DNA of 64,000 bases from the NCBI GenBank assembly GCA_914767715.1, contig OU612072.1, forward strand, positions 7,070,001-7,134,000, given 5' to 3'. The notes under the pieces were generated by a model. The model made no database searches, was not told where the DNA came from, and saw only the letters and a list, made by a program, of their open reading frames with translations. Below, in pieces: positions 31,390-61,200 of the stretch (the stretch's first letter is position 1; every line of letters starts with the position of its first letter). The stretch comes from Membranipora membranacea. Its lineage: Eukaryota; Bryozoa; Gymnolaemata; Cheilostomatida; Membraniporidae. The translations under genes were made by a program, and so were the position numbers.

Positions 31390-32157
31390 AATGGTGAAAC
31401 TACAACAAACAACTTCCTAGAAAGTCTCACTGTCAAGAATATTTCTCAGTATTACATGCGCAAATTATTTCAAGACACTGCGTGTCTATATACCCAGAGC
31501 TCAAATTGCACCATTTCAGCGATAATTGCATCTAACCTGAGCTTGGTAAATAAGCAAAATCTAAACAAACTTGATCTGGTCCCCGGCTGTGGAGTTATCC
31601 TCCCGTTGGACAGAAGCAGACAATTCCTTAACAGTTTAATTATATGTAATTGTTCCGGTTGCAGCCTTCATAGCAGCAAGCAAAAAGGAGCGGGGTGGGG
31701 GCGCCAGGCAAGGTACAAGAGTTTGGGGGCTAAAACTATAGATATTGAATTATTTCTGATTGTGGATTGACTCTAAACTTGTTAAAACCCTGGTTTACGT
31801 AGGCTTAAAACTTTATGTGCCAACCACACTTTGTTCTAATTAGGTCTGAATTAAGTGATAAGAATAGAAAATTGCCTGGATAGATTACTACTTGTTATCA
31901 AAACAGGAGTTCGGAATTATCCAGCTCCAATCATTTTGAGTACACTATATGCTTTATTTAGTCTAAAATTGAATGTTGATTTAATCCGAAAATCCAAGTT
32001 ATATTTTCCCCCTTCCCCCTCCGCACAAAATAATGACAATTGCAGATTGATGATACTGTAAAGTTATATAAGAGACATTAGATAGACATCTACCCTCTCT
32101 GGTTACATGGATCCATGTTTTTACTTCATTTGTTTGCATTGATGTCATTGCATAATA
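31390..32157. repeat. Diverged copy of the 3' flank of the tandem genes (unit A)
   Basis: The sequence downstream of copy A resembles 45160-46289 downstream of copy B, and in part 57535-58236 downstream of copy C, with many differences. The 167-residue open frame at 31267-31770 lies in this flank and is broken in the homologous region, so it is probably not a gene. Confidence 0.65.
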
Positions 32158-35100
32158 TTATATTAGTTTATAGTATGTTATCTGATCTGGACCAACAGAA
32201 GACACTACCAGCTGATCACCTTCTAGTTGCATATCCAAAATAAACTTTGAATTTCCGTTGCAAAGTTCCTTAACAGATTTACCTTAAAAAGAAAGAAAAA
32301 TTATCAGAGGTCGCTTATATCAGGGTAACCCAGTAATAAAGCGCTGGACCATATATTTGTATAGAGCGCGTCATATTAGTTTATGCTGTTGATTTTCTTA
32401 AAATATTGAGTTGCCATTGCCTGGTCATGACAGGGCTTGTTTTTCCAATAATCATGACCTATGGTAAAGCGTTGTAGCTCAGGAGTGTTAGGGAATCATG
32501 AGACAATTTCTTACTTGAGCGGACAGAAAAGCATTGCATAACAATAATATGCTCCCTACAATAATTTATCAGACATACCTGTGTTGATATCCAGTACAGA
32601 GATAGATGTGCTGAAGAAATCTGCTACCAGCACATAGCACTTAGCGTAACGTACTACAGCTGTTGGGGCCTCCACATGAGTAGATGTCCACTCTATCTCT
32701 TCTGTAGTCAGGTTTAGCTTGTATACTTTGTCGGTGCACCAGTCAGTGATGATAACAGAGTCATCTCCAGCCTCACATATATATGAGTACAAGCTAAGCT
32801 GAGTACAGGGAATGTGTCTGATGATGTCACCAGTTAGTGAATACACAGTGAGCCTCTTATTAGATACATCACATACTATCACATGAGATCCTACTAAAGC
32901 TAACATATTACCGTAATTAAAGGTAGGACCGTAAGGAAGATACCATGAGGTAATAAGCTGACCTAGCATATTATAAATGCATAGTCTACTCTTATTCTGA
33001 ATCTCCTGAATTACAAATATTTGATTATTTTTAGCTCTGATACTCTCTACACGTCCCTCTGATTGTAAAGAAGTAAATATTGTCTGATTTCCCTGAGAAT
33101 CAATCTGTAATATTGACCCAATGGATCCTACATATGTAACCCCTTTATACTGACAGATGGCCCTGGGAGTGTAGCCTAAAGATAATGTTTTGATTGTATT
33201 TATAGCAGATGGTGGTTTGATATTTTTGAGCACAGACTGATTGTTGAGGCTGATTATGAAACTCTCTGCTGTTGCAAGCTTCACCTCTATGTCTCTACTC
33301 TCATTCTCTGGAAAAAAATCTTAGAGTGATTAAAAATGCCTGATTTGATTGTCAAATGACCAAAATAATCTAAATAATATATTACAATACATAATTTTAA
33401 TTATTTGTATTAAAAGGATCTTTGACATGTGTATTTACCAGTATTAACCCATACCTTTGATAGTAAAGAACAAAAGAGTAGAATGAACGTTTTTAGATAA
33501 AAATTGATTCAAATGGTGTACAAATTTTGGAAATCACTTTGAATGCGTAAATAAATTGGATTTTCGGTGTCCACTCAATTGGATTCAAATCTAAGTTATA
33601 TAAACACACCTTGGATAACAAATATTACCTGTTAGGAGAGGTTCTATAAGAGGGTTTGGTACAATGAGATCACTGTGCTGACTCTCCATCATTTCTGACA
33701 GCTTTCTCTCTATCTGGGTTTTCTTCTTCAGTAGAGAGATCTGAGGAAAAGAGAGTTTACATTACAGTGATACAGAGCTGCACAGGACCAGTACTCCCAT
33801 ATTTTAATCCCCGAAAATGATTTGTGATCTATAGTATCGAAATTGGATTTGTCTTCTCATTTGTGACAAGGAGCCCACAACTACAGGTTATCTTCATAAC
33901 ATCAGGATTTTGTAAAAGATAATGGATGCAGATGAAATGGAGAGATGGATAAATATAAAAGTTCCCATGACAATCACTGATATGTTTGAAAGATTATTTG
34001 AAGAAGATTTTATCAAAAACACAGGATTATTGCGAAAGAATGAAGTAAATAATATGTGGACCCGCACTGTGTCCAGTATGGAACTAATTTAAGAGGTTTG
34101 CATGGCTTGGAAAAGGCAAGACGAGTCTGCGTTCCACATACATCAACATGAATCCATTTGACAATTGACGCGTCCCAGGTAACATGTGACTTGTGTTATC
34201 AACTTACCCGATTGCAGGGATCAAACATATCTCTGATTTTCTTCATCTCTTCACAGACACCAGTATACTTGATATTGTACTGAGATACTGACTCCTTACT
34301 TTCTCTTCTTCTCTGTATATATTCAGTCTCCAGCTGTTTGTATTTCTCATTTATTGCCTGGATCTACAAACATAAGCAGGCGAATGAATATAAGTAATGA
34401 TTAACCATATCGTCATGAGAAAATACCATATCCATACTCATATCCTTACTCCTTGTAGCTGCCGAAACCAACATCAAAACCATTTCAGTTCAGATCAACG
34501 AAATCAGAGACCAAAAACTAATCAATCACAGTTTTCTTGCCCAAGTTGTCATTGTCAACAAACGAAATTGAGATTAATCTATAAAGGCTGGTAGAGAACA
34601 AAACTCTTCACCCTACAAGTTTGGCCCAGTGATTCCGTCTAATGCTGAGTCATGTCCCAAGATTGACAATTTATAAGATACAGCTAAAATGGAACTTTTC
34701 CCTTCCAACAGATCTAAGATCACTATAGTAATTTTGTTTCAGTCTTTGAGGTTTTTTGATGTCCATGCACCCATTGTCTTCTGACAATCTAAATCCTTGA
34801 GACGAATGGTCCCTCAGCAGTGCCTGCAGACAATTCAGAGGCAAATTTACACACAGACCTGCTGATCACGAGTGTGATGTATAGATCTTACTCCATCACC
34901 AGTCTCTTCATCCCATTGAGTCAGTAAATCTGAAGTCTGACTTATAACTTCAGTGAACCCTTCGAGTTTCCCTTCTGCACAAGATTTCAAAGGCTCCAGT
35001 TTGGACCGAATCCTTTCTGCAAGCTGGGAGAGTGGAATATACTTGTGTGATGAGCCTGTAACTATAACAAAAATAAAGTTTCGGATTCGGTAGTAAAATT

Positions 35101-38100
35101 TTATCAATAGCAGCAATTTAGTTAAATTATGACATTTCCTGAATTATATTGACATGGCGCTGGTCAATCCCAATTCAATAGTTTGAGATGCAAAATTAGG
35201 AAGAATACAAATTATGTGCCTCTTGTTAATATTTGGGAAATAAATGCAACAAATGTTGCAAAATTATTATTACCCAAACAGAATGTGGTTGGTGAGTTTA
35301 GGCAGTTACAACAGAACATCTCACAACAGTTTTCACATCCCACAGATGATTGTTCTGCGAAGTGTATGCTACAAAATGTCCCTTCTTGTAGTGATATTGT
35401 GTCCGTGGACTGCGTATGATGAGCTGATGTTCTCCAGTTGTCTGTCCGACCAACCATTGCAGCTTCATCTGTAAGCGATGGTGACTGGGCTATATCCATC
35501 ATTGGTCGAACTAACTGCACTACCTGGTGAGGAGACACAATAAGCACGATGAATTTCAGGCTATTATTGTGGTGGCATTTGTACATATAGAACAATGACA
35601 AGGCATCAAATTTTATGGTGTAAAACTAGAGAAGAACCCCCAGTGATTTCATCGACTTCTATTTACTTCAAGCTGGGCTTATGGCCGTGCATAAACACAA
35701 GATATTTGTAAAGCTGGTGGTACAATTTAGAGTTTTTGGAAATAGGTGGCTCATTATTGCCAGTTTATTACTTCTACCTTGCCCGCTGGCTTGTTGCCTG
35801 CTTGTTTACATGGCGGTCGACTCTGATTAGTCTCAATCAGCACACATTCATATTGTCTACTGTCAATGTTAGCATCAGCTTCAGGATGAAAACCTGTAAA
35901 AATCAGACAGGATTTTTTAATGAGAACAATAGACCATGTGGTAAATCCTTATGGCTGCATGCCTGGCTTATGAAGTGTGTAGAGTGCGTATGAGAGGACA
36001 TTGTGGCATGTGGAAATCTTATCAAATAAAGGAAAAAAGAGAGGCAATTTGGAATTCATTTCAATGTAGGAAACCAGTCATCTCATATGGTAGAGAGTGT
36101 TACCAGTTTAAATTGAAGACAGAATAGAATAAAATTGTGAAAATTGTCTATTGAGTATTTAAAATTTGAGCCTTTGAAAAGGTGCATTGATCTCTGCCTT
36201 AAATAAAAAAGCAAGATCCACCAGCTTACGCTTTAGTCGGCTTATTGTGAAATGAGCGCAGCAGCAAGAAAGAGCATGCTCTGCAATAAAGTTATTTTGA
36301 CTTTACGTTAATTTAAAATAGGCGCCTCCATTTACGGTTCGATAGATTGATAAAGTGAATACATAATGATGGCGAGTCTCTAACTAGCACTACATAAGCT
36401 GATGTTCTTTAAGACATAAAGATGACAATGGCAACAGGTGAATCAATTTTTTCCATGGTAATAATATTTAACTACATGTAAAGTGTTATAACCTTGATGT
36501 GGAGAAGTGAGAGCAATGAGGCCTTCTGCTGCAAGGGTGGCTTCTGGTGTAGGAGGGTTACACAAATCAATGGATGATATAGAAAGGGGAGCAGGCATTC
36601 CCTCTCTGCCATACTCAGAGGGTGATATTGATAGATTTTTATCATCTGATAATGTCTCATCTGTCACCTGATGATGGAACTCATCTGATGACAAGCTGAA
36701 GTTGGGCTGTGGTAAGAAAGAGTCAAAAAATCAGGGTAAGGGTTAAGAGATATCGAACAGTGTAATTAAAAGGACAACTCCAGACTGCCTGTCATTATAT
36801 ACCATGGGACATGCACAAGAGATTTTGGAGATTTGTACCAAACTCCCTAGAACAAGTTTAATCCGATTGCCTGCATTCCTGTTGCTCCATTCTACTGGTC
36901 ACGCCGTGGATCGGGAGCGACTCAGAATGCAGTCAAATAGACCAAAGTTGGTCTACAAACTCCCTAACATGCACTGATAAAAAAGTTAGACTTGTAAGAC
37001 TTCTGATAAATGAGGATTTGAATTTGAAAGTTTATATTAATCAGGGGCAGTTAGGCTAATATGGAATAATCCTCCCAAATGCAATCAAAGCGTTCAAATT
37101 TGACAGATTTGACAGATGTCAAATGTCACAGAAAACTTTACCTCAAGATTAAGAGCACTGTTATCATCTTCACCTTGGCATCTGCACATCTGATATTTAA
37201 TGTTACACCGCTGACAGAGAGGTAGATTGTCATCATCACCGCCAGCGCCTTCAGGGGAAAGTTCAGTAACGGTTGTAGGCAGGTTGGAAGGTACTGTCTG
37301 TAATCAAGGGTTACACTTTGTATACAGTTGAACATTCAAGGGAAAGGAAACTTGTATTCAAAGTTGATCGCGGTATGATATCATAATATTATTTCACACT
37401 TTAACACTTTAATTTATTTAAAAATGCTGTTGGCTAGCAGTCTATCAAAACTCCTCCCATACTAGCAAGTTATGCACCCCCGACAGAAAGAGACAGATTT
37501 ATAATGACAGCGATAATTTTTCAATTTGACGAAACAAATCTGTTCCACCCGACCTCTTGCTAAGCGATAAAAAACTGCAATACTTACTTCATCTTTTTTT
37601 TCTTTACAAATACAAGGTACGAAGTGGTTTGGCCTCCATTTCCCTTGATCCAGCAGATCAAAAGAGGATTCATCGGTGCTTGTCCAGCTAATGACAATTC
37701 TTCGAACAGCTGTCCCTTCAGGCTTGATGGTCCCAGAAAAGAGTTCTCTCTTTGTGTAAGAGTTGTTGTGGCTGGGATAAATCACCTGTATTTCAACACT
37801 CAGATGTTGACTCAAAAAGAAGATGTCTACCATTGAGCTGTACTTTCTGGAATCGAGCATCGATCTGCTGTGGTTTTTAATCGCCCTCACGGAATCTTTA
37901 GCGACAAAGTCAGCGATGGATGATTGTAGAATCATATCTAGGTCTTGTTCAGTAAGATCATTTCTGAATGTTTTTCTCAGCATTGTCAGGTTTAAAAGGT
38001 TGGCATTGTTGTGCATAAATATGCAGTTTCTCACTCTGAGCTCGAATGCTTTGTCTTCAGAGCCAAAGAGCAACCAGCATACAGAGTTGAAGAGGCAACT

Positions 38101-38207
38101 ACCATCCTTACTAACATCAATCGGTATGAGATTTGTGACAGACTGGCGCCTAAAATAAAATATTGATGATTTGGTTAAAATGCGGTTAAAATCACAAGGT
38201 TTCATAT

Positions 38208-38264
<57 letters not shown>

Positions 38265-41200
38265 CAATTTTATTGCATCAACCACCACCTGAAAATGTTC
38301 TCCCTCATGTGCAAAAAAAATCAACAAAGACCAAGAAAATCAAGTTTAGCGATTCGTCAGAAATACTTTGCGCAGGTTTTGGAGTACCTAGAATCTCAAA
38401 ATTCAATTTTTTTTGCATCATGTACCCGCAAATTTAGTTATCTCAAACATATAGTTATATCTTATGAAATCTTGTCTTCCTATAAAGCTGCTCTTAGCTT
38501 GATGCTACATCAGGCAGTTTTCAATCCTGAAACTAAATTCTGCAAGTTTTGGTGTACACCAACATAATAGTCCAGTGGCAGCCTACCAAAAATATGGCTA
38601 AAAACGCAAATTCATTTACGAAATTGGATGCATAAATTCCAAGAGTGGATTCTAGGGTAGTTTTTTGAGGAGGTCGCAATGGTGATGATGTACCTTACAC
38701 AAAGTTGCACAATAGGCAGCAAATTGCCAAAAACGCTGCCAAAAATGGCCAAAATTGCTGTTCTTATGATATTTCAAAGGTCTGTCCCTTGCTCACCTTA
38801 TGAGTTGCGCTGCTCAAACTCTGCAATCAGATTCATACATACCTTGGTCAGTTTTTGGTAAAATATCAGCATAATATCTCAAATATTGAGTGAATAACCA
38901 AGCTTATAAAAAGTGATAGAGTGAAAAACGCTGCCAAAAAAAGGGAAAGTGATGAAAAAATGATGATATGGTTTCAAAACAGCCAAAATCTGAAAGCGCA
39001 TGTCATAATTAGTGGATCTACAACTTTACATGGGTCTGCTATCATAAATAGCCGAGATGTGGCCAACAACGGTTGCAATACCCCCCTATATCACCTGTAT
39101 ATAACTATCATTGAAACGACACTACTTTTTCAATTTTGCAGACGCCTCGAGATCTGACTTTGAATATTCGTATTGATCTGATTTTATTATGGTGGTTTTG
39201 TATTGACTCAATCAATGACAAAATAATTTTCTCTCAGCACTACGCAACTTCCTGATGATCCTTGAAGGAGTGAACTTTTGCTTTACACACTATATAACCT
39301 TGTAAAGACGACTATTATGATACTATAAAGGAATCCTAAGAATACGCACTATCTCAAAAAAGACACACTCAGAGCATTGAAAACTGGTGTTATGCGATGG
39401 GAGGGTCAATACACAGTCACCATACAAAAATCAGATCAATACAAACATTTGAAGCCTGTTTTTTAGGCAGAAAAAGTAGTTTCACTTTAATGATAGTTAT
39501 ACACAGGTGATAGAAGGGGCATTGCAACTGTTGTTGACCGCATCTCAGCTTTTTATGATAGCAGACCCATGTAAAGTTGTAGATCCACTATATTATGACA
39601 TGCTCTTTTAGATTTTGGATGTTTTGAAACCATATCATCATTTTTTGATCACTTTCCCTTTTACCGGCAGCGTTTTTGGCAATTAGCGACCCATTGTGCA
39701 ACTTAGTGTAAGGTACATTGTTACCATTGCGATCAGCGTGAAAAACTGTACCAGTAACAACTGACAAACCTTATCCATCCAAAAGTGCAAATGGAGGTGA
39801 CAAGATAGGCAGGGGCTGCCACTGGACTATAACAACATCATATATTCCCATTATTTACCATAATAATTATCAAAAGAGTCGAATGTAGCAAATTTCTTTT
39901 CATCATTGTCTGTATAATACGAATGTTGCTGGGCATGGGTTGAATTGGATTCGAAACAAAACTTGACATACTCTAGAATTTGCAAGAGGACAACTTTAAC
40001 ATTCCACAGATGCTTGAAACAGCTAGATTAGGCTAGCTAACAAATAAACACCTACTTTATTCTATATAAGCTCCCATGCCACCTAATGAGCTAAATTAAA
40101 CTCTAGCCAACTAGCTGAACTCTAGCTAACAACTACACACCCACTTAAAGTGACAGTCCTACTAGGCCATGTTTAGTATGGTTTTAAAGATCTCAGGCTG
40201 AAAAGTCATTAGGGCATATGAAATAAAACAGCCTGTGAACCCAATTGCAGTAAAACTGCTGCAAAGTCTGAAAATTGGGATCATAGTGGATCATAGTGAT
40301 TAATTGCCTCCCCCTGACTACTATGATCCACTAGGATCCCAATTTTCAGACTTTGCAGCAGTTTTACTGCAATTGGGTTCACAGGCTGTTTTATTTCATA
40401 TGCCCTAATGACTTTTCAGCCTGAGATCTTTAAAACCATACTAAACATGGCCTAGTAGGACTGTCACTTTAAGTGGGTGTGTAATTGTTAGCTAGAGTTC
40501 GGCTAGCTGGCTAGAGTTTAATTTAGCTCATTAGGTGGCATGGGAGCCTATATAGAATAAAGTAGGTGTTTATTTGTTAGCTAGCCTAATCTAATAATTG
40601 AAAAAAACTAATTGCTATTTTCCATAATTTTAATTTTTTTAATTTTTTTATTTGCCCTATGAGCTCACAATATTTGATTTACTGGGGTAACATATTAACT
40701 TTTTTAATAGGACTGTCACTTTAAGCCCAGATAGACTCCAACCCAAACTAATTATGAAGGCTCTAGCTAACATTTACTAGCATATGTAGCCCTACATATC
40801 AACAAGAACAATAATTTACCTGAATATCTTCTCAGTGACTCTATCCACATTCACATTGCGCGCCTTTGTACTAACAGCGATTGGGACGTGAAAAAACTGA
40901 TCAGCCTGAAAATAAAAACACCTGATATAGCATGATCTCAAAGCTAAGCAAGAATTTGGAAATCATATTGGCTAAGAATCTAATAAATAAAAATACTCAC
41001 TGCGGGTAGGGCGTTGGACCAGTCTTCCTGTGTTTTGAGAGTGTCTGCCATCTCCCTTAAGTCTAACTTCCCTGGACACCTGGGACGTTGAAAACCTACA
41101 ATGGCCAAAATATTTTTCTAGTTTAGACTGGAATAGAGTATATTTAATTTTTTTCCAGGAGACAAACTCGCTGACTTTGTAGAGCTTTCCTATATTCAAT

Positions 41201-41831
41201 TACTTGATCATCTCTGTGGAACAATTAAAATTCCGATATCACATAAAGCATATCTACCAAAGTATTTAAATATAAGGTACAGGATGTGAGACAGTATATA
41301 CAGATGCCTTATTAGGAAGTCTATTTTTAATTGGACCTGCCGCCATACTATTCCTCTAGTGATAAGGCTTCAGTGGGATCTACTAACAATGAATCTGATC
41401 TAGATCTAAATAGCAATAAATATGTGTGACCAAGGAGTTATCCCTTGATTGATTCACTGAAAAATCACTCATTTTATCTTGGTCAGCAACCTCGACTGTT
41501 TTTATTCAAACTTTACTAAACACACGGATCTTAAATATTTACCCTCATCCTGATGTTCTCCAGATATTCTGCTCGGGACTTGCGATTTTTCCTCTTTTGG
41601 CCGCTCACCGGGTTTGTGCCTTTTCCGTGACAATGAGGCGGGAGAAGAGTCGTATTTGGCCCAAATTTCATTCCTTTTACTTTTGATATTATAAACTGTG
41701 CGCTCAGCTATTCCGTACTCCTTTGTAATGTCTTCCACAGTGAACCCCTGATTAATCTTACCCAAAATCTCAATTTTCTGTTTACCACTTAGATCCTTTC
41801 TTTTATGCTTTGGAGTTTCGTTGGGAGCCAT
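32158..41831 (-). CDS. Copy A: HTH-OTU-B-box-coiled coil-beta-propeller protein, 1030 aa
   Basis: Thirteen minus-strand exons join in phase with no stop: 41543-41831, 41001-41095, 40820-40905, 37588-38149, 37142-37297, 36493-36706, 35778-35893, 35274-35523, 34859-35061, 34208-34363, 33629-33740, 32579-33307, 32158-32282. Residues about 8-60 form a CENP-B/pogo-type helix-turn-helix (GKQKIEILGKINQGF, YGIAERTVYNIK). Residues 157-344 are an OTU-type cysteine protease domain: DVSKDGSCLF with Asp172 and Cys175, and NHFVPC with His332. Residues 345-396 hold a C-x2-C-x6-C-x-C cluster; 397-506 are acidic and Ser/Pro-rich. Residues 556-600 match a B-box (FCSIH, CENC, FCCNC, then HKYIPL); about 600-746 is a coiled coil; 747-1030 repeat as propeller blades (NHL-like). 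It is a TRIM-NHL layout with OTU in the RING position. Expected activity is removal of ubiquitin from whatever the propeller binds; this is inferred. Confidence 0.88.
32579..33307 (-). CDS. Copy A exon 12: beta-propeller
   Basis: This 729-nt exon encodes repeated four-strand units of about 40 residues with recurring patterns such as AICQYKGVTYVG, LALVGSHVIVCDV, ICEAGDDSVIITD and VVRYAKCYVLVADF, each ending in a turn and then a line such as KRLTVYSLTG or SISVLDINTG. This is an NHL/YWTD-like propeller, which normally binds protein or RNA. Exon 13 supplies the final strands. It is the most variable exon among the three copies. Confidence 0.85.
36838..36970. repeat. Dispersed repeat in intron 5
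   Basis: A segment starting ACCAAACTCCCTAGAACAAG and including an inverted pair around TAGACCAAAGTTGGTCTA recurs in copies B (about 50993-51125) and C (about 62951-63083). A related stretch lies at about 23005-23110 outside the array. Confidence 0.6.
37588..38149 (-). CDS. Copy A exon 4: OTU-like deubiquitinase domain
   Basis: One 562-nt exon holds essentially the whole domain, entered through a codon split 2+1 after EKIF and left at a codon boundary. The nucleophile motif is DGSCLFNSVCWLLFG, the family's usual D-G-x-C-L-F form, and the His motif is PNHFVPC near the end. The length of about 188 residues suits OTU domains, including the divergent ones found beside transposon-derived sequences. 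The same exon is at 51744-52305 in copy B (two residue differences noticed) and starts at 63701 in copy C. Confidence 0.85.
38203..38265. repeat. (TA)n microsatellite in intron 3, copy A
   Basis: Alternating TA with interspersed AAATA units. The same place in copy B (about 52361-52378) has a much shorter run, so the tract changed length after duplication. Confidence 0.95.
38567..39830. mobile_element. 1.26-kb foldback DNA transposon in intron 3, copy A
   Basis: The ends are inverted (ATAGTCCAGTGGCAGCC at the left, its complement at the right), and the inner sequence is one long imperfect inverted repeat: about 38680-39230 pairs with about 39380-39760. The CAGTGGCAGCC core resembles hAT-type ends, but I could not find a clean 8-bp duplication. 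It holds no transposase. The same element is in copy B, so it was present before the duplication. Confidence 0.75.
40149..40468. mobile_element. 320-bp palindromic MITE with TTAA duplication, copy A only
   Basis: Arms begin AGTGACAGTCCTACTAGG and mirror each other around about 40308, with a loop of about 20 bases. TTAA lies on each side (40145-40148 and 40469-40472), as for piggyBac-type and some other elements. Copy B has a single TTAA at the matching place, an empty site. To the right, 40473-40591 is an inverted copy of the left flank 40019-40144, and a second AGTGACAGTCC-type end closes at 40720 before another TTAA. Confidence 0.85.
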
Positions 41832-45159: not shown

Positions 45160-46289
45160 GCAACACAAAACAACTTCCCAGGAAAAAATACTATCTAAAA
45201 TATTTGTCAGTATTTATTTTTTTGTTTGGTTCCTGCATCCAGTAAATATTGAAATTCAGGCATAAACTGGCGACTAAAAATTTATTGCAGCGTATTGTCA
45301 TGTACTCAGGTCCTTGGTCTATAAGCTTTCGCTCTGATTCTAGGGAATCTATTATTTTATTAACTTTATTGACAGCCTGTAAGAGGTTTGGTATCGAGCA
45401 TCCGAAGTTGTCTTCATCACATCTAATATTTTAAAAACTTGCTGTGTGTATAACAGTATAGTCGGTCCTCAAATTGCACCATTTCAGCAGAATTTGTCTC
45501 TAACCTAGCTTGGTAAATAAATATACAAGACCTCAACTAACTTGATTTGGTCCTCAGTTGTTGTGTTATTCTTGATTGCGGATTGATTCTAAATTGTGTG
45601 CATATAATTAGTAATTAAAAACAAAACATCCAAATATAACATAAAATTATTATTGAGCCTTTCAAGATAAAAATTGAACTATCGAAATGGCCAACTGACT
45701 GTGGTATCATGGTATTTTATTGAAGGCGTAACCTTGGCCTGTTAGATTACAAACATTGTTATGACAGAATGGGATCAAATTAAAACATTATAAAATTAGT
45801 ATTCAAGAGCCTGGTTGACATTCAAAAGTAGCATAGAATTAAAGTGCACGTATAAAGAAATGTCAAGATAAGATTGGTCTCAAAGATAAATCAAAGTTGT
45901 CCCCCCTCGCAGATAAAAACATCAAGCGAAGCAGTAGCATACATACAGATGATAATACAATGCACTCCACTTAATCCAAACCTCTTGGGCCCTAGAATGC
46001 ATGAAGGTTTGAGTGGATGGATTACTACTCCTATCTGAATAAGCAGGAGCTCGGAGTTAAACTATACACTATGTATGCGTTTAACGTCTTAAAGTGAACA
46101 TTGATTTAATCAAAAAATCCTCATTATATATCTTCCATCTAACAAAAAAAAACAATTGAGGATAGATGATACAGTGAATTAATAATCAGAGACAGTAAAT
46201 AGATATCAGCTAATGTCTCTGATTATATAGGTATATGCTGTTATAATTATTGTTTATATCAATATAAAATCATTCAATCATTGTTTAAA
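45160..46289. repeat. 3' flank of copy B
   Basis: From about 45588 this is very similar to 57535-58236 (downstream of copy C). The part at 45160-45590 is a diverged relative of 31390-31775 downstream of copy A. No gene seen. Confidence 0.65.
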
Positions 46290-49200
46290 TTATTTCAGTC
46301 TACAGTATGCAATCTTTGAAATTCCAGAAGACACTACCAGCTGATCACCTTCTAGTTGGATATCCCTAGTTAATGAAATACCAAGCTTTAGGTCCAGTCC
46401 CTTTACAAAATGACCTTCAAAAAGAAATTAAAATTATCATATATCCCTAATATCCAGGTCAATTTTGTTATCAAGGATTGGGCTTGGTAATAGTGTAGAG
46501 TGTAAAAATTGTATGCTTGTCAGCTATCAAACGTAGTAGTTGAATTAGTTGAATATTTTTTGTTTATCTTAAAATATTGAGTTGACATTGCCAAATTATG
46601 TCGCTGCTTGTTTTTCCAATAATCATGACCTATGGTAAAGCGTTGTAGCTCAGGAACTGTCACAATTTCTAATTTGAGCAAACAAACAAGCATTGTGTAA
46701 CACAGTCATTCTTACAACAATTTATCAGACATACCTGTGTTGATATCCAGTACAGAGATAGATGTGCCGGATGACTCTGCTACCAGCACATAGCGCTTAG
46801 CGTAACGTACTACAGCTTCCGGGATCCTCACATTAGTAGATGTCCACTCTATCTCTTCTGTAGTCAGGTTTAGCTTGTATACTTTGTGGGTGCACCAGTC
46901 AGTGATGATAACAGAGTCATCTCCAGCCTCACATATACATGAGTTCCGGCTAAGCTGAGTACAGGGAATGTGTCTGATGATGTCACCAGTTAGTGAATAC
47001 ACAGTGAGCCTCTTATTAGATACATCACATACTATCACATGAGATCCTACTAAAGCTAACTTATTACCGTAATTAAAGGTACTGTCAGGATGATACCATG
47101 CGGTAATAAGCTGACCTAGCATATTAAAGATGCATAGTCTACTCTTATTCAGAATCGTCTGAATTACAAATATTTGATTATTTTTAGCTCTGATACTACC
47201 TGCAAATTCCCCTGATTGAAATGAAGTAAATTTAGTCTGGTTTCCCTGAGAATCAATCTGTGATATTGACCCCTTGAATCCTACATATGTCACACCTTTA
47301 TACTGACAGATGGCCCTGGGAGTGTAGCCTAAAGATAATGTTTTGATTGTATTTATAGCAGATGGTGGTTTGATATTTTTGAGCACAGACTGATTGTTGA
47401 GGCTGATTATGAAACTCTCTTCTGTTGCAAGCTTCACCTCTATGTCTCTACTCTCATTCTCTGGAAAAAAATCTTAGAGTGATTAAAAATGCCTGATTTG
47501 ATTGTCAAATGACCAAAATAATCTAAATAATATATTACAATACATTATTTTAATTATTTGTATTAAAAGGATCTTTGACATGTGTATTTACCAGTATTAA
47601 CCCATACCTTTGATAGTAAAGAACAAAAGAGTAGAATGAACGTTTTTAGATAAAAATTGATTCAAATGGTGTACAAATTTTGGAAATCACTTTGAATGCG
47701 TAAATAAATTGGATTTTCGGTGTCCACTCAATTGGATTCAAATCTAAGTTATATAAACACACCTTGGATAACAAATATTACCTGTTAGGAGAGGTTCTAT
47801 AAGAGGGTTTGGTACAATGAGATCACTGTGCTGACTCTCCATCATTTCTGACAGCTTTCTCTCTATCTGGGTTTTCTTCTTCAGTAGAGAGATCTGAGGA
47901 AAAGAGAGTTTACATTACAGTGATACAGAGCTGCACAGGACCAGTACTCCCATATTTTAATCCCCGAAAATGATTTGTGATCTATAGTATCGAAATTGGA
48001 TTTGTCTTCTCATTTGTGACAAGGAGCCCACAACTACAGGTTATCTTCATAACATCAGGATTTTGTAAAAGATAATGGATGCAGATGAAATGGAGAGATG
48101 GATAAATATAAAAGTTCCCATGACAATCACTGATATGTTTGAAAGATTATTTGAAGAAGATTTTATCAAAAACACAGGATTATTGCGAAAGAATGAAGTA
48201 AATAATATGTGGACCCGCACTGTGTCCAGTATGGAACTAATTTAAGAGGTTTGCATGGCTTGGAAAAGGCAAGACGAGTCTGCGTTCCACATACATCAAC
48301 ATGAATCCATTTGACAATTGACGCGTCCCAGGTAACATGTGACTTGTGTTATCAACTTACCCGATTGCAGGGATCAAACATAACTCTGATTTTCTTCATC
48401 TCTTCACAGAAACCAGTATACTTGAGATTGTACTGAGATACTGACTCCTTACTTTCTCTTCTTCTCTGTATATATTCAGCTTCCAGCTGTTTGTATTTCT
48501 CATTTATTGCCTGGATCTACAAACATTAGCAGGCGAATGAATATAAGTAATGATTAACCATATCGTCATGAGAAAATACCATATCCATACTCATATCCTT
48601 ACTCCTTGTAGCTGCCGAAACCAACATAAAAAAACCATTTCAGTTCAGATCAACGAAATCAGAGACCAAAAACTAATCAATCACAGTTTTCTTGCCCAAG
48701 TTGTCATTGTCAACAAACGAAATTGAGATTAATCTATAAAGGCTGGTAGAGAACAAAACTCTTCACCCTACAAGTTTGGCCCAGTGATTCCGTCTAATGC
48801 TGAGTCATGTCCCAAGATTGACAATTTTTAAGATACAGCTAAAATGGAACTTTTCCCTTCCAACAGATCTAAGATCACTATAGTAATTTTGTTTCAGTCT
48901 TTGAGGTTTTTTGATGTCCATGCACCCATTGTCTTCTGACAATCTAAATCCTTGAGACGAATGGTCCCTCAGCAGTGCCTGCAGACAATTCAGAGGCAAA
49001 TTTACACACAGACCTGCTGATCACGAGTGTGATGTATAGATCTTACTCCATCACCAGTCTCTTCATCCCATTGAGTCAGTAAATCTGAAGTCTTACTTAT
49101 AACTTCAGTGAACCCTTCGAGTTTCCCTTCTGCACAAGATTTCAAAGGCTCCAGTGTGGACCAAATCCTTTCTGCAAGCTGGGAGAGTGGAATATACTTG

Positions 49201-52200
49201 TGTGATGAGCCTGTAACTATAACAAAAATAAAGTTTCGGATTCGGTAGTAAAATTTTATCAATAGCAGCAATTTAGTTAAATTATGACATTTCCTGAACT
49301 ATATTGACATGGCGCTGGTCAATCCCAATTCAATAGTTTGAGATGCAAAATTAGGAAGAATACAAATTATGTGCCTCTTGTTAATATTTGGGAAATAAAT
49401 GCAACAAATGTTGCAAAATTATTATTACCCAAACAGAATGTGGTTGGTGAGTTTAGGCAGTTACAACAGAACATCTCACAACAGTTTTCACATCCCACAG
49501 ATGATTGTTCTGCGAAGTGTATGCTACAAAATGTCCCTTCTTGTAGTGATATTGTGTCCGTGGACTGCGTATGATGAGCTGATGTTCTCCAGTTGTCTGT
49601 CCGGCCAACCATTGCAGCTTCATCTGTAAGCGATGGTGACTGGGCTATATCCATTGTTGGTCGAACTAACTGCACTACCTGGTGAGGAGACACAATAAGC
49701 ACGATGAATTTCAGGCTATTATTGTGGTGGCATTTGTACATATAGAACAATTAAAAGGCATCAAATTTTATGGTGTAAAACTAGAGAAGAACCCCCAGTG
49801 ATTTCATCGACTTCTATTTACTTCAAGCTGGGCTTATGGCCGTGCATAAACACAAGATATTTGTAAAGCTGGTGGTACAATTTAGAGTTTTTGGAAATAG
49901 GTGGCTCATTATTGCCAGTTTATTACTTCTACCTTGCCCGCTGGCTTGTTGCCTGCTTGTTTACATGGCGGTCGACTCTGATTAGTCTCAATCAGCACAC
50001 ATTCATATTGTCTACTGTCAATGTTAGCATCAGCTTCAGGATGAAAACCTGTAAAAATCAGACAGGATTATTTAATGAGAACAATAGACCATGTGGTAAA
50101 TCCTTATGGCTGCATGCCTGGCTTTTGAAGTGTGTAGAGTGCGTATGAGAGGACATTGTGGCATGTGGAAATCTTATCAAATAAAGGAAAAAAGAGAGGC
50201 AATTTGGAATTCATTTCAATGTAGGAAACCAGTCATCTCATATGGTAGAGAGTGTTACCAGTTTAAATTGAAGACAGAATACAATAAATTTGTGAAAATT
50301 GTCTATTGAGTATTTAAAATTTGAGCCTTTGAAAAGGGGCATTGATCTCTGCCTTAAATAAAAAAGCAAGATCCACCAGCTTACACTTTAGTCGGCTTAG
50401 TGTGAAATGAGCGCAGCAGCAAGAAAGAGCATGCTCTGCAATAAAGTTATTTTGACTTTACGTTAATTTAAAATAGGCGCCTCCATTTACGGTTCGATAG
50501 ATTGATAAAGTGAATACATAATGATGGCGAGTCTCTAACTAGCACTACATAAGCTGATGTTCTTTAAGACATAAAGATGACAATGGCAACAGGTGAATCA
50601 ATTTTTTCCATGGTAATAATATTTAACTACATGTAAAGTGTTATAACCTTGATGTGGAGAAGTGAGAGCAATGAGGCCTTCTGCTGCAAGGGTGGCTTCT
50701 GGTGTAGGAGGGTTACACAAATCAATGGATGATATAGAAAGGGGAGCAGGCATTCCCTCTCTGCCATACTCAGAGGGTGATATTGATAGATTTTTATCAT
50801 CTGATAATGTCTCATCTGTCACCTGATGATGGAACTCATCTGATGACAAGCTGAAGTTGGGCTGTGGTAAGAAAGAGTCAAAAAATCAGGGTAAGGGTTA
50901 AGAGATATCGAACAGTGTAATTAAAAGGACAACTCCAGACTGCCTGTCATTATATACCATGGGACATGCACAAGAGATTTTGGAGATTTGTACCAAACTC
51001 CCTAGAACAAGTTTAATCCGATTGCCTGCATTCCTGTTGCTCCATTCTACTGGTCACGCCGTGGATCGGGAGCGACTCAGAATGCAGTCAAATAGACCAA
51101 AGTTGGTCTACAAACTCCCTAACATGCACTGATAAAAAAGTTAGACTTGTAAGACTTCTGATAAATGAGGATTTGAATTTGAAAGTTTATATTAATCAGG
51201 GGTAGTTAGGCTAATATGGAATAATCCTCCCAAATGCAATCAAAGCATTCAAATATGACAGATTTGACAGATGTCAAATGTCACAGAAAACTTTACCTCA
51301 AGATTAAGAGCACTGTTATCATCTTCACCTTGGCATCTGCACATCTGATATTTAATGTTACACCGCTGACAGAGAGGTAGATTGTCATCATCACCGTCAG
51401 CGCCTTCAGGGGAAAGTTCAGTAACGGTTGTAGGCAGGTTGGAAGGTACTGTCTGTAATCAAGGGTTACACTTTTGTATACAGTTGAACATTCAAGGGAA
51501 AGGAAACTTGTATTCAAAGTTGATCGCGGTATGATATCATAATATTATTTCACACTTTAACACTTTAATTTATTTAAAAATGCTGTTGGCTAGCAGTCTA
51601 TCAAAACTCCTCCCATACTAGCAAGTTATGCACCCCCGACAGAAAGAGACAGATTTATAATGACAGCGATAATTTTTCAATTTGACGAAACAAATCTGTT
51701 CCACCCGACCTCTTGCTAAGCGATAAAAAACTGCAATACTTACTTCATCTTTTTTTTCTTTACAAATACAAGGTACGAAGTGGTTTGGCCTCCATTTCCC
51801 TTGATCCAGCAGATCAAAAGAGGATTCATCGGTGCTTGTCCAGCTAATGACATTTCTTCGAACAGCTGTCCCTTCAGGCTTGATGGTCCCAGAAAAGAGT
51901 TCTCTCTTTGTGTAAGAGTTGTTGTGGCTGGGATAAATCACCTGTATTTCAACACTCAGATGTTGACTCAAAAAGAAGATGTCTACCATTGAGCTGTACT
52001 TTCTGGAATCGAGCATCGATCTGCTGTGGTTTTTAATCGCCCTCACGGAATCTTTAGCGACAAAGTCAGCGATGGATGATTGTAGAATCATATCTAGGTC
52101 TTGTTCAGTAAGATCATTTCTGAATGTTTTTTTCAGCATTGTCAGGTTTAAAAGGTTGGCATTGTTGTGCATAAATATGCAGTTTCTCACTCTGAGCTCG

Positions 52201-55200
52201 AATGCTTTGTCTTCAGAGCCAAAGAGCAACCAGCATACAGAGTTGAAGAGGCAACTACCATCCTTACTAACATCAATCGGTATGAGATTTGTGACAGACT
52301 GGCGCCTAAAATAAAATATTGATGATTTGGTTAAAATGCGGTTAAAATCACAAGGTTTCATATATATATATATATATACAATTTTATTGCATCAACCACC
52401 ACCTGAAAATGTTCTCCCTCATGTGCAAAAAAAATCAACAAAAACCAAGAAAATCAAGTTTAGCGATTCGTCAGAAATACTTTGCGCAGGTTTTGGAGTA
52501 CCTAGAATCTCAAAATTCAATTTTTTTTGCATCATGTACCCGCAAATTTAGTTATCTCAAACATATAGTTATATCTTATGAAATCTTGTCTTCCTATAAA
52601 GCTGCTCTTAGCTTGATGCTACATCAGGCAGTTTTCAATCCTGAAACTAAATTCTGCAAGTTTTGGTGTACACCAACATAATAGTCCAGTGGCAGCCTAC
52701 CAAAAATATGGCTAAAAACGCAAATTCATTTACGAAATTGGATGCATAAATTCCAAGAGTGGATTCTAGGGTAGTTTTTTGAGGCGGTCGCAATGGTGAT
52801 GATGTACCTTACACAAAGTTGCACAATAGGCAGCAAATTGCCAAAAACGCTGCCAAAAATGGCCAAAATTGCTGTTCTTATGATATTTCAAAGGTCTGTC
52901 CCTTGCTCACCTTATGAGTTGCGCTGCTCAAACTCTGCAATCAGATTCATACATACCTTGGTCAGTTTTTGGTAAAATATCAGCATAATATCTCAAATAT
53001 TGAGTGAATAACCAAGCTTATAAAAAGTGATAGAGTGAAAAACGCTGCCAAAAAAAGGGAAAGTGATGAAAAAAATGATGATATGGTTTCAAAACAGCCA
53101 AAATCTGAAAGCGCATGTCATAATTAGTGGATCTACAACTTTACATGGGTCTGCTATCATAAATAGCCGAGATGTGGCCAACAACGGTTGCAATACCCCC
53201 CTATATCACCTGTATATAACTATCATTGAAACGACACTACTTTTTCAATTTTGCAGACGCCTCGAGATCTGACTTTGAATATTCGTATTGATCTGATTTT
53301 ATTATGGTGGTTTTGTATTGACTCAATCAATGACAAAATAATTTTCTCTCAGCACTACGCAACTTCCTGATGATCCTTGAAGGAGTGAACTTTTGCTTTA
53401 CACACTATATAACCTTGTAAAGACGACTATTATGATACTATAAAGGAATCCTAAGAATACGCACTATCTCAAAAAAGACACACTCAGAGCATTGAAAACT
53501 GGTGTTATGCGATGGGAGGGTCAATACACAGTCACCATACAAAAATCAGATCAATACAAACATTTGAAGCCTGTTTTATAGGCAGAAAAAGTAGTTTCAC
53601 TTTAATGATAGTTATACACAGGTGATAGAAGGGGCATTGCAACTGTTGTTGACCGCATCTCAGCTTTTTATGATAGCAGACCCATGTAAAGTTGTAGATC
53701 CACTATATTATGACATGCTCTTTTAGATTTTGGATGTTTTGAAACCATATCATCATTTTTTGATCACTTTCCCTTTTACCGGCAGCGTTTTTGGCAATTA
53801 GCGACCCATTGTGCAACTTAGTGTAAGGTACACTGTTACCATTGCGATCAGCGTGAAAAACTGTACCAGTAACAACTGACAAACCTTATCCATCCAAAAG
53901 TGCAAATGGAAGTGACAAGATAGGCAGGGGCTGCCACCGGACTATAACAACATCAATATTCCCAATTATTTACCATAATAATTATCAAAAGAGTCGAATG
54001 TAGCAAATTTCTTTTCATCATTGTCTGTATAATACGAATGTTGCTGGGCATAGGTTGAATTGGATTCAAACCAAAACTTGACATACTCTAGAATTTGCAA
54101 GAGGACAACTTTACCATTCCACAGATGCTTAAAACAGCTAGATTAGGCTAGCTAACAAATACACACCTACTTTATTCTATATAAGCTCCCGTGCCACCTA
54201 ATGAGCTAAATTAAACTCTAGCCAACTAGACAAACTCTAGCTAACAATTACACACCCACTTAAGCCCAGATAGACTCCAACCCCAACTAACTATTAACAA
54301 GTTAACTCAGACTCTAGCTAACATTAACTAGCATATGTAGCCCTACATATCAACAAGAAAAATACTTTACCTGAATATCTTCTCAGTGACTCTATCCACA
54401 TTTACATTGCGCGCCTTTGTACTAACAGCGATTGGGACGTGAAAAAACTGATCAGCCTGAAAATAAAAACACCTGATATAGCATGATCTCAAAGCTAAGC
54501 AAGAATTTAGACATCATATTGGCTAAGAATCTAATAAATAAAAATACTCACTGCGGGTAGGGCGTTGGACCAGTCCTCCTGTGTTTTGAGAGTGTCTGCC
54601 AGCTCCCTAAAGTCTAACTTCCCCGGACACCTGGGACTTTAAAAACCTACAAAGGCCAAAATATTTTTCTGGTTTAGACTGGAATACAGAATATTTAATT
54701 TTTTTCAAGGAGACAAACTCGCTGACTTTGTAGAGCTTTCCTATATTCAATTACTTGATCATCTCTGTGGAACCATTAAAATTCCGATATCACATAAAGC
54801 ATATCTACCAAAGTGTTTAAATATAAGGTACAGGATGTGAGATAGTATATACAGATGCCTTATTAGGAAGTCTATTTTTAATTGGACCAGCTGCCATACT
54901 ATTCCTCTATTGATATGGCTTCAGTGGGATTTACTAGATCTAGATCTAAAGAGCAATAAAAATGTGTGACCAAGGAGTTATCCTTTGATTGATTCACTGA
55001 AAAATCACTCATTTTATCTTGGTCAGCAACCTCGACTGTTTTTATTCAAACTTTACTAAACACACGAATCTTAAATATTTACCCTCATCCTGATGTTCTC
55101 CAGATACTTTGCTCGGGACTCGCGATTTTTCTTCTTTTGGCCTATCACCGGGTTTGTGCCTTTTCCGTGACAATAAGGCGGGAGATGAGTCGTATTTGGC

Positions 55201-55371
55201 CCAAATTTCATTCCTTTTACTTTTGATATTATAAACTGTGCGCTCAGCTATTCCGTACTCCTTCGTAATGTCATCCACAGTGAACCCCTGATTAATCTTA
55301 CCCAAAATCTCAATTTTCTGTTTACCACTTAGATCCTTTCTTTTATGCTTTGGAGTTTTGTTGGAAGCCAT
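46290..55371 (-). CDS. Copy B of the HTH-OTU-B-box-coiled coil-propeller gene, with one stop codon
   Basis: The same 13 exons are recognisable: 55083-55371, 54552-54646, 54371-54456, 51744-52305, 51297-51452, 50648-50861, 49933-50048, 49429-49678, 49014-49216, 48361-48516, 47782-47893, 46735-47460, 46290-46414. Exon lengths equal those of copy A except the propeller exon (3 nt shorter). All junctions keep phase. In exon 2 a CAA codon is TAA (54639-54641), which would stop translation after about 98 residues, leaving only the helix-turn-helix. Exons 3-13 are otherwise open with all OTU and B-box residues kept. Either the copy is a recent pseudogene, it starts downstream by another promoter or splice form, or the base is an error or polymorphism. 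The propeller differs from copy A at about 32 residues. Confidence 0.85.
52681..53945. mobile_element. Foldback DNA transposon in intron 3, copy B
   Basis: It has the same ends and internal inverted structure as 38567-39830 in copy A, with few differences. It dates from before the duplication. Confidence 0.75.
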
Positions 55372-57534: not shown

Positions 57535-58236
57535 AAATTGTGTGCATATAATTAGTAATTAAAAACAAAACATCCAAATATAACATATAATTATTATTGA
57601 GCCTTTCATGATAAAAATTCAACTATCGAAATGGCCAACTGACTGTGGTACCATGGTATTTTATTGAAGGCGTAACCTTGGCCTGTAAGATTACAAACAC
57701 TGTTACAACAGAATGGGATCAAATTAAAACATTATAAAATTAGTATTTAAGAGCCTGTTTGACATTCAAAAGTAGCATAGAATTAAAGTGCACGTATAAA
57801 GAAATGTCAAGATAAGATTGGTCTCAAAGATAAATCAAAGTTGTCCCCCCTCGCAGATAAAAACATCAACTGAAGCAGTAGCATAGATACAGATGTTAAT
57901 ACAATGCACTCCACTTAATCCAAACCTCTTGGGCCCTAGAATGCATGAAGGTTTGAGTGGATGGATTACTACTCCTATCTGAATAAGCAGGAGCTCGGAG
58001 TTAAACTATACACTATGTATGCGTTTTACTTAGTCTTAAAGTGAACATTGATTTAATCAAAAAATCCTCATTATATATCTTCCATCTAACAAAAAAAAAC
58101 AATTGAGGATAGATGATACAGTGAATTAATAATCAGAGACAGTAAATAGATATCAGCTAATGTCTCTGATTATATAGGTATATGCTGTTATAATTATTGT
58201 TTATATCAATATAAAATCATTCAATCATTGTTTAAA
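57535..58236. repeat. 3' flank of copy C
   Basis: Near-identical to 45588-46289. The unit boundary falls at about 57535. Confidence 0.7.
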
Positions 58237-61200
58237 TTATTTCAGTCTACAGTATGCAATCTTTGAAAATCCAGAAGACACTACCAGCTGATCACCTTCT
58301 AGTTGTATATCCGTAATCCATGGACTTCTGCTGTCGAGGTCGGGGTCCAGTCCCTTTACAAAATGACCTTCAAAAAGAAATTAAAATTATCATAAATCCC
58401 TAATATCCAGGTCAATTTTGTTATCAAGGATTGGGCTTGGTAATAGTGTAGAGTGTAAAAATTGTATGCTTGTCAGCTATAAAACGTAGTAGTTGAATTA
58501 GTTGAATATTTTTTGTTTATCTTAAAATATTGAGTTGGCATTGCCAAACTATGTCGCTGCTTGTTTTTCCAATAATCATGACCTATGGTAAAGCGTTGTA
58601 GCTCAGGAACTGTCACAATTTCTTATTTGAGCAGACAAACAAGCATTGTGTAACACAGCCATTCTTACAACAATTTATCAGACATACCTGTGTTGATATC
58701 CAGTACAGAGATAGATGTGCCGGAGCAATCTGCTACCAGCACATAGCGCTTAGCGTAACGTACTACAGCTATTGGGTCCTCCACATGAGTAGATGTCCAC
58801 TCTATCTCTTCTGTAGTCAGGTTTAGCTTGTAGACTTTATTAGTGTAGTAGTTAGTGATGATAACAGGGTCATCTCCAGCCTCACATATACAGTAGTTCC
58901 AGCTGAGCTGGGTACAGGGAATGTGTCTGATGACGTCACCAGTTAGTGAATACACAATGAGCCTATTATTAGATACATCATCTACTATCACATGAGATCC
59001 TAATAAAGCTAACTTATTACCGTAATAAGGAGAGATACGACTGTCAGGATGATACCATGAGGTAATAAGCTGACCTAACATATTATAAATGCATAGTCTT
59101 CTCTTATTCTGAATCTTCTGAAATACAAATATATGATTATTTTTAGCTCTGATACTCTCTACACGTTCCCCTGATTGTAAAGAAGTAAATCTTGTCTGAT
59201 TTCCCTGAGAATCAATCTGTGATATTAACCCAATGGATCCTACATATGTAACCCCTTTATACTGACAGATGGCCCTGGGAAAGTAGCCTAAAGATAATGT
59301 TTTGATTGTATTTATAGCGGATGGTGGTTTGATATTTTTGAGCACAGACTGATTGTTGAGGCTGATTATGAAACTCTCTGCTGCTGCAAGCTTCACCTCT
59401 ATGTCTCTACTCTCATTCTCTGGAAAAAAATCTTAGAGTGATTAACAATGCCTGAGTTGATTGTCCAATGACCAAAATAATCTAAATAATATAGTACAAT
59501 ACATAATTTTAATTATTTGTATTTAAAGGATCTTTGAAAAGTGTATTTACCAGTATTAACCCATACCTTTGATAGTGAAGAACAAAAGAGTAGAATGAAC
59601 GTTTTTAGATAAAAATTGATTCAAATGGTGTACAAATTTTGGAAATCACTTTGAATGCGTAAATAAATTGGATTTTCGGTGTCCACTCAATTGGATTCAA
59701 ATCTAAGTTATATAAACACACCTTGGATAACAAATATTACCTGTTAGGAGAGGTTCTATAAGAGGGTTTGGTACAATGAGATCACTGTGCTGACTCTCCA
59801 TCATTTCTGACAGCTTTCTCTCTATCTGGGTTTTCTCCTTCAGTAGAGAGATCTGATGAAAAGAGAGTTTACATTACAGTGATACAGAGCTGCACAGGAC
59901 CAGTACTCCCATATTTTAATCCCCGAAAATGATATGTGATCTTTAGTATGGAAATTTGATTTGTCTTCTCATTTGTGACAAGGAGCCTACAACTACAGGT
60001 TATCTTCATAACATCAGGTTTTTGTAAAAGATGAATGGATGCAGATGAAACGGAGAGATGGATAAATATAAAAGTTCCCATGACAATCACTGATATGATT
60101 GAAAGATTATTTGAAGAAGATTATATCAAAAACACAGGATTATTGCAAAAGAATGAAGAAAATAATATGTGGACCCGCACTGTGTCCAGTATGGAACTAA
60201 TTTAAGAGATTCGCATGGCTTGGAAAAGGCAAGACGAGTCTGCGTTCCACATACATCAACATGAATCCATTTGACAATTGACGCGTCCCAAGTAACATGT
60301 GACTTGTGTTTTCAACTTACCCGATTGCAGGAATCAAACATATCTCTGATTTTCTTCATCTCTTCACAGATACCAGTATACTTGAGATTGTACTGAGATA
60401 CCGACTCCTTACTTTCTCTTCTTCTCTGTATATATTCAGCTTCCAGCTGTTTGTATTTCTCATTTATTGCCTGGATCTACAAACATTAGCAGGCGAATGA
60501 ATATAAGTAATGATTAACCATATCGTCATGAGAAAATACCATATCCATACTCATATCCTTACTCCTTGTAGCTGCCGAAACCAACATCAAAACCATTTCA
60601 GTTCAGATCACCGAAATCAGAGACCAAAAACTAATCAATCACAGTTTTCTTGCCCAAGTTGTCATTGTCAACAAACGAAATTGAGATTAATCTATAAAGG
60701 CTGGTAGAGAACAAAACTCTTCACCCTACAAGTTTGGCCCAGTGATTCCATCTAATGCTGAGTCATGTCCCAAGATTGATAATTTATAAGATACAGCTAA
60801 AATGGAACTTTTCCCTTCCAACAGATCTAAGATCACTATAGTAATTTTGTTTCAGTCTTTGAGGTTTTTTGATGTCCATGCACCCATTGTCTTCTGACAA
60901 TCTAAATCCTTGAGACGAATGGTCCCTCAGCAGTGCCTGCAGACAATTCAGAGGCAAATTTACACACAGACCTGCTGATCACGAGTGTGATGTATAGATC
61001 TTACTCCATCACCAGTCTCTTCATCCCATTGAGTCAGTAAATCTGAAGTCTGACTTATAACTTCAGTGAACCCTTCGAGTTTCCCTTCTGCACAAGATTT
61101 CAAAGGCTCCAGTTTGGACCGAATCCTTTCTGCAAGCTGGGAGAGTGGAATATACTTGTGTGATGAGCCTGTAACTATAACAAAAATAAAGTTTCGGATT

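Follow-up and report, generated by a model that had tools for sequence, protein, structure and literature searches.

A tandemly amplified, probably TRIM-derived gene of Membranipora membranacea with a predicted OTU deubiquitinase domain in the place of RING

TRIM genes are known as genes for ubiquitin ligases, and the C-terminal domains of these proteins can diversify under attack by pathogens. The window analyzed here, the whole 64,000-nucleotide stretch C8:7070001-7134000 of the Membranipora membranacea genome (339 Mb in 18 contigs), contains two complete copies and part of a third of a gene that combines a CENP-B-type helix-turn-helix (HTH), an OTU domain, a B-box, a coil, and a β-propeller, in that order. 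We consider it reasonably probable that this is one tandemly amplified, TRIM-derived, diversifying receptor gene, in which a predicted OTU deubiquitinase stands in the place of RING.

The nearest described proteins are those of the TRIM-NHL group (TRIM2, TRIM3, TRIM32, TRIM56, TRIM71, Brat, and Mei-P26; subfamily C of PMC3503706), which have in common with the array gene a B-box 2, a coil, and a C-terminal propeller. The array gene differs from them in that no RING or B-box 1 is detected, OTU and HTH lie upstream, and the propeller is not recognized as NHL by Pfam. TRIM-like genes, as outlined in the same text, lack part of the RING–B-box–coiled-coil signature, with RING missing in some, and are hypothesized to be TRIM-derived; in that account RING is simply missing, whereas here an enzyme domain of opposite expected action takes its place. 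The fish finTRIM, btr, and trim35/hltr families likewise form large duplicated sets with C-terminal loops under positive selection and new domain combinations (accessible part of PMC3137616). As far as that source goes, the fish families vary in B30.2 and their domain changes are named at the C terminus, whereas in the array the propeller varies and the N-terminal effector appears to be swapped. OTU deubiquitinases (OTUD1, A20, OTUD5, OTUD7B, VCPIP1) share with the array domain the DGSC motif with its Cys, a C-terminal His, and profile similarity, but the array OTU is distant from known OTUs (no PDB match below E=1e-5), is attached to a TRIM tail, and is accompanied by no A20 zinc finger that Pfam detects in the protein of the first copy or its domain pieces. 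Because no RING was found, the array gene is by definition no TRIM, and it looks, from its sequence, like a TRIM descendant. The titles and abstract openings listed in searches of the open literature name no OTU–TRIM fusion and show no OTU in the place of RING, which is not proof of absence from print.

The array extends over 7.10-7.32 Mb of C8 and consists of 11 units (U1–U11), defined by single-exon searches with HTH-side, OTU, or B-box exons, and four type II genes, which are recognized by coil, motif, and propeller; all matches lie on one strand. In U1, 13 exons (named 1–12 plus 6b; Table 1) lead on the minus strand from an ATG at 41831 to a TAA at 32158, with GT and AG borders at every junction, and join into one open frame of 1028 residues plus stop. 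A preliminary description of this DNA had proposed the same frame with the catalytic Cys at residue 175, and both were recovered exactly.

The position of the OTU exons is best seen by comparison with related loci outside the array. A propeller query has at least 150 matches in the genome (150 of 423 candidates scored) and a B-box–coil query has at least 152 (150 of 481 candidates scored; several exons per unit). In all three outside paralogues that were read, L062 (C10), L063 (C2), and L079 (C6), exons for RING, B-box 1, and B-box 2 lie upstream, and the coil exon is also present (for L063, in L049). Pfam finds RING in each of the three, above cut-off in L062 only, and B-boxes below cut-off. 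The array has HTH-OTU exons at this position and RING is not detected, which supports the earlier proposal that OTU is located where RING should be. A RING regular expression that recovers both of its positive controls (L062 and L063) gives no match in the window, whichever of the six frames is read, and none in 48 loci that represent part of the array, and tblastn with RING gives no match below E=1 inside the U1 gene. None of 150 listed RING matches in the genome falls in C8:7.05-7.32 Mb; because these come from 150 scored of 309 candidates and the C6 RING was missed, the genome search alone is weak evidence that the array is free of RING. Related-locus searches of genome-contig and viral-contig collections found no relative.

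RING-bearing loci of this kind are abundant on C2, where a very large TRIM array at 20.84-22.60 Mb contains about 70 RING exon matches that are 91-100% identical to a query from the same array. Many propeller exons lie next to these RING exons, and the 13 examined vary mostly on one face.

The downstream half of the U1 protein resembles the tail of the outside paralogues. Exon 7 carries the B-box ligands C557, H560, C569, C572, C577, C580, C588, and H593, scores 22.8 bits against a profile of three B-box 2 sequences (0 of 2000 shuffles as high), and shares its phases (0 in, 1 out) with the B-box 2 exons of L062 and L063. Judged by this similarity, exon 7 is the B-box 2 of this TRIM family. The coil exons of the array match coil exons elsewhere in the genome, those of RING-bearing paralogues included, at 27-46% identity, and it is by this homology that the coil is recognized. 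The AlphaFold model of the propeller exon has a predicted local distance difference test (pLDDT) score of 71, and Foldseek returns 889 PDB matches to it at E<=0.001. The first 50 include the NHL domains of TRIM71, TRIM2, TRIM3, Brat, and Mei-P26, and many kinds of propeller occur among the matches listed; since the first of these is a designed propeller, the model does not single out NHL. Pfam finds neither B-box nor NHL in the whole protein halves or in the domain pieces. The layout described earlier is confirmed, with these qualifications: the B-box is upheld by homology but not by Pfam, the fold is modeled as a propeller but not specifically as NHL, and the Cys cluster noted in exon 5 consists of four Cys but is not detectable as a B-box 1. 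Indeed, exon 5 as a decayed B-box 1 was rejected, as 258 of 2000 shuffles score as well.

For the upstream half, the profile check suggested in the preliminary description gave matches above the Pfam gathering score for both OTU and CENP-B on domain pieces (OTU on exons 3–4, 24.1 against 23.3 bits; CENP-B_N on exon 1, 22.0 against 21.2 bits), and below it on the 467-residue exon 1–6 piece (22.3 and 18.4 bits, respectively). Exon 1 also matches HTH_23 (25.8 > 24.6), and the HTH of U11 matches CENP-B_N more strongly (29.3 > 21.2). No DDE transposase domain is matched by Pfam in either half of the U1 protein. A profile that combines the OTU of the array with that of the diverged copy and two distantly related sequences of the genome was searched against PDB and retrieves 22 sequences at E values of up to 10. 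The majority are OTU proteins, with the alignment at the Cys motif (6dx2 at 9e-5, OTUD1 at 0.0018, A20 at 0.028, and OTUD5 at 0.068), and a few unrelated sequences occur from E=0.23 on; part of this score may stem from one profile row, L031, which is a more classical OTU. The entry 6dx2 is annotated in the PDB listing as RNA-dependent RNA polymerase, and we take it to be a nairovirus OTU.

The predicted activity depends on residues that are largely kept in the array. Cys175 is present in all nine array OTU exons read and the His in eight of them (U4 is frameshifted there). The sequence NHFVPC is invariant in four aligned sequences, two of which are only 24-33% identical to U1 (U9 has NHFAPC); of these two, L031 keeps the Cys and L020 was aligned without that part. 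Between U1 and U11, the ratio of nonsynonymous to synonymous rates (dN/dS) is 0.32 for exons 2–4 (34.3 synonymous and 46.7 nonsynonymous changes) and 0.28 for exon 4, and in exons 3 and 4 the proposed frame gives 0.20 and 0.28, as compared with 0.61-2.22 in the other two frames. Exons 2–4 thus look constrained in this one diverged pair. These features speak against a rather unlikely alternative, in which the OTU lacks activity as a pseudo-enzyme or merely reads ubiquitin, and the protein serves as a decoy, its related coil and propeller blocking the RING paralogues. Such a decoy would be in keeping with the resemblance between coil exons inside and outside the array, with the lack of an acidic residue at His+2 of the OTU sequence, and with the type II genes, all four of which keep an uninterrupted propeller exon though searches with OTU and B-box exons found none for them, so that an enzyme-less form is tolerated. 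Several further points count against the main reading: a catalytic Cys and His were identified in the OTU but no third residue, the AF2 model of the OTU exon is unreliable (pLDDT 33, from three near-identical alignment rows), the constraint rests on the single U1–U11 pair, and exon 4 gives dN/dS of 0.58-0.71 between U1 and the broken copies U4, U5, and U9. Constraint on the HTH exon is weak, as the comparison of U1 with five copies gives dN/dS of 0.50-1.17.

The eight strongest OTU Pfam matches in the genome (L001–L008) share two OTU types. Those of L001, L002, and L007 lie in frames with an integrase part, whereas the frames of L003–L006 and L008, whose OTU sequences are similar, are shorter. 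A further OTU at C6:16591412 (L064), inside a TRIM propeller cluster, was considered as a second OTU–TRIM and rejected, as it sits in an integrase–OTU transposon. The longer frames L001, L002, L007, and L064 look like transposons because of the integrase part in frame.

That the 13-exon frame is a single gene is likely from its sequence. It is unlikely that two co-amplified neighbors are present instead, namely an HTH-OTU gene whose end lies within exon 6 or beyond it and a TRIM-like gene without RING that starts in exon 7, at the ATG before DIAQ, but this arrangement would account for several features that count against one gene. The exon 6 frame reads on to its own stop, and the donors of exon 6 (AAG/GTTATA, 1.4 bits) and exon 7 (2.3 bits) are weak, as are the acceptors of exons 4, 5, and 11 (<=1.0 bit), by a position weight matrix of generic values. 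The linking exon 6b is weakly supported, as dN/dS does not set its frame (0.60-0.84) apart from the others (0.47-0.92), its donor (AAG/GTAGAA) not being among those that score >4 bits. The exon 7 ATG is kept in eight of ten units read and could start a shorter protein; its context is good, all three copies of the window having A at -3 and G at +4. In addition, U3 is broken in its 5′ half and has an intact propeller. Exon 6b is indel-free and open at 70-73% nucleotide identity in U4, U8, and U9, and an alternative donor inside exon 6 (CAG/GTGACA, 7.6 bits, phase 0) would also keep the frame into exon 7.

In the type II gene IIa (C8:7145481-7152381; L038, L077), which contains HTH, three exon-6-like exons (PLSVSS..VPTP), coil, and propeller, the HTH exon, the three motif exons, and the coil exon join in phase 1 without a stop. 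The presence of HTH, exon-6-like exons, and coil in one frame favors the single-gene model, and two of the motif exons end in donors (AAG/GTTTGA and AAG/GTTTGT) that correspond to that of exon 6. This upstream region is the only one read among the four type II genes, and the HTH of type II is that seen there (HTH_28, 21.5 bits; CENP-B_N, 16.6 bits; both below the Pfam cut-off); one of the motif exons was found by search and two by eye, and no OTU, B-box, or RING was found in the region. The exon 6 motif, PLSISS..PPTPEATLAAEGLIALTSPHQ in U1, has 15 matches in the genome at E<=0.001, which correspond to all 11 OTU-type units (three of them partial) and all four type II genes, and none outside the array. 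Exon 3 lies upstream of the B-box exon in 11 of 11 cases. OTU and propeller are jointly intact or jointly damaged or absent in 10 of the 11 units (Fisher p=0.015), which is soft support because the units are related and not independent.

The units differ in their integrity. The OTU exon is present in nine units and was not found in U7 and U8; it is open in U1, U2, U6, U10, and U11, and affected by stops, a frameshift, or a split in U4, U5, and U9. U1, U6, and U10 are open across exons 1–11, and U11 is open in exons 2–11 as read, with an HTH frame at 7320056-7320433. Exon 2 is also open in U11, at 75% nucleotide identity, and has a stop in U2 only among the 11 units. Beyond the window, U3 has a stop in the HTH exon and has lost 7 bases at the OTU exon border. 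The tandem recurrence of the unit, together with the U1–U11 dN/dS values in the proposed frame, indicates that the arrangement is more than chance.

Over the whole of exon 11, dN/dS between U1 and each of 10 copies is 1.16-3.92. Propeller tests were carried out on 11 complete copies, the partial exons of U4, U5, U8, and U9 being dropped from 15 and that of U7 (one stop) being kept. A parsimony count on the tree gives 269 nonsynonymous and 54 synonymous changes, an excess of nonsynonymous change over neutral expectation whether kappa is set to 1, 2, or 3 (p from 1.6e-3, at kappa 1, to 1.8e-6). By convention, the D–A and B–C loops form the top face of a propeller. The face with these loops (105 residues) has 229 nonsynonymous changes and the other face (85 residues) has 24, whereas synonymous changes are even between them (22.7 and 23.0). 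In loops, changes per residue amount to 3.09 on the variable face and 0.10 on the other, and none of 194 circular shifts reaches the observed contrast. In five pairs in which no copy occurs twice (10 of the 11 copies; U2 is left out because it is near-identical to U6), pN/pS is 2.52 on the variable face (p=3e-6) and 0.34 on the other. The 13 C2-cluster paralogues lean the same way but more weakly, with nonsynonymous:synonymous counts of 191:69 on that face and 55:46 on the other. Two comparisons run counter to this pattern, U2 with U3 over the whole exon (dN/dS 0.76) and U3 with U6, one of the five pairs, on the variable face, where no excess is seen (pN 0.171, pS 0.165).

These counts show diversifying selection on one face of the modeled propeller, the assignment of strands to faces resting on the pLDDT 71 model and on the loop convention given above. 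A single fast-evolving face would be anticipated for a receptor of the immune type, and the contrast between the faces strengthens the earlier suggestion that the propeller recognizes a target. It also bears on the possibility, which we regard as very improbable, that the array is decaying and without function, its gene fragments and pieces of transposon origin being maintained through tandem duplication. A visible defect (a stop, a frameshift, a border loss, or an OTU exon not found) in 7 of 11 units (U2–U5 and U7–U9) counts against the receptor reading and suits decay, and decay is also suited by the transposon pieces in the window; one constrained face beside another with excess change is not expected from neutral decay, and neither does the dN/dS of the OTU exon between U1 and U11 fit it.

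Exchange between copies has probably contributed to the spread of exon 11 variants. U2 and U3 differ at 66 of 726 sites in exon 11 and at 15 of 125 in exon 12, as compared with 9/321 in the intron that precedes exon 11, 7/320 in the one that follows it, and 1/225 downstream. Exon 11 dS (0.06-0.12) exceeds intron 10–11 divergence (0.3-2.8%), so that point mutation as the sole cause of the exon 11 differences was rejected and segment exchange between copies is likely too. Such exchange weakens the tree-based counts, but not the contrast between faces. U1 differs from U2 and U3 by 22-29% from intron 11 onward, and its 3′ end therefore appears to have another history, which points to recombination or conversion with a border in this part of the U1 gene. 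Among the corresponding segments 31941-32578 (U1), 46065-46734, and 58009-58687, the latter two differ by 0.4-2.2% outside exon 12.

In the mechanism that we propose for a single OTU-bearing receptor gene, the gene would have descended from a RING TRIM with an NHL-like propeller, retaining B-box 2, coil, and propeller and having HTH-OTU exons upstream. Assembly of the protein would fall to B-box and coil, as it does in TRIMs, coil dimers being expected from TRIM homology. The face on which selection is seen would bind a changing ligand, and the OTU, as its sequence family, Cys and His, and constraint suggest, would remove ubiquitin from the bound target or from a signaling complex at the target. 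Through its HTH, the protein may be directed to DNA or to the nucleus. The likeliest role would be in defense or self/non-self sensing, with ubiquitin removal as the output, in opposition to the many RING paralogues or alongside them. In NHL domains, RNA binds a charged patch on the top surface of the propeller (accessible part of PMC9070667), and positive selection acts on the variable C-terminal loops of fish TRIMs (accessible part of PMC3137616); by analogy, the variable face may be a recognition surface for something that is ever changing. If the proposed mechanism holds, the output of a receptor could be reversed by exon exchange while its sensor face remains under positive selection. RING, OTU, and apparently effector-less versions with related propellers in one genome would, moreover, constitute a natural control.

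More tentatively, and with considerable doubt, the two kinds of locus could form a paired receptor system, in which related diversifying propellers are carried by a RING ligase that adds ubiquitin or by an OTU that removes it, the type II genes without either providing a third, non-enzymatic output. Such a system would be a ubiquitin counterpart of activating and inhibitory immune receptors.

Table 1. Exons of the first copy and extents of the other tandem copies, in window coordinates
Feature	Position	Strand	Support
Exon 1: start codon and CENP-B/pogo-type HTH (residues 1-96)	41543..41831	-	Pfam
Exon 2: linker	41001..41095	-	open in 10/11 units
Exon 3: start of OTU region	40820..40905	-	dN/dS 0.20, U1 vs U11
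Exon 4: predicted OTU domain, Cys175 in DGSC, His332 in NHF	37588..38149	-	Pfam, PDB profile, dN/dS
Exon 5: acidic linker with four Cys	37142..37297	-	open in 9/9 units read
Exon 6: array-specific motif PLSISS..PPTPEATLAAEGLIALTSPHQ	36493..36706	-	genome search
Exon 6b: adaptor from phase 1 (in) to phase 0 (out), the least certain of the exons	35778..35893	-	
Exon 7: B-box	35274..35523	-	homology to B-box 2 exons of L062, L063, L079
Exon 8: coiled-coil region	34859..35055	-	coil exons elsewhere in genome
Exon 9: coiled-coil region	34208..34363	-	genome search
Exon 10: coiled-coil region	33629..33740	-	genome search
Exon 11: NHL-like β-propeller, one face hypervariable	32579..33307	-	AF2 model, Foldseek, selection
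Exon 12: propeller end and stop codon	32158..32282	-	
Complete second tandem copy (U2), exon 2 with one in-frame stop	46290..55371	-	
Third tandem copy U3, cut by window end inside OTU exon	58237..64000	-	

Intron 3 of U1 contains a 570-base near-perfect palindrome (40024-40593; 95% self-complementary), and about 570 bases are missing at this position from the second copy, as in a foldback or miniature inverted-repeat transposable element (MITE)-like insertion. Elsewhere in the window, the minus strand carries pieces of a P-element/THAP9-like transposase at 1518-4542 (TNP-like RNaseH N of Pfam scores 116.7 bits, and THAP9_C and RNaseH_C fall short of the cut-off), and a reverse transcriptase piece lies at 25049-25693 (RVT_1, 32.1 bits). 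A Destabilase (i-type lysozyme) frame at 19200-19685 (Pfam, 48.1 bits) may be a further antibacterial gene in the neighborhood. A fragment of the 3′ part of the propeller exon (438-573; 79-84% identity) at the left edge of the window overlaps a 174-base stretch (557-730) that is repeated at 9109-9282.

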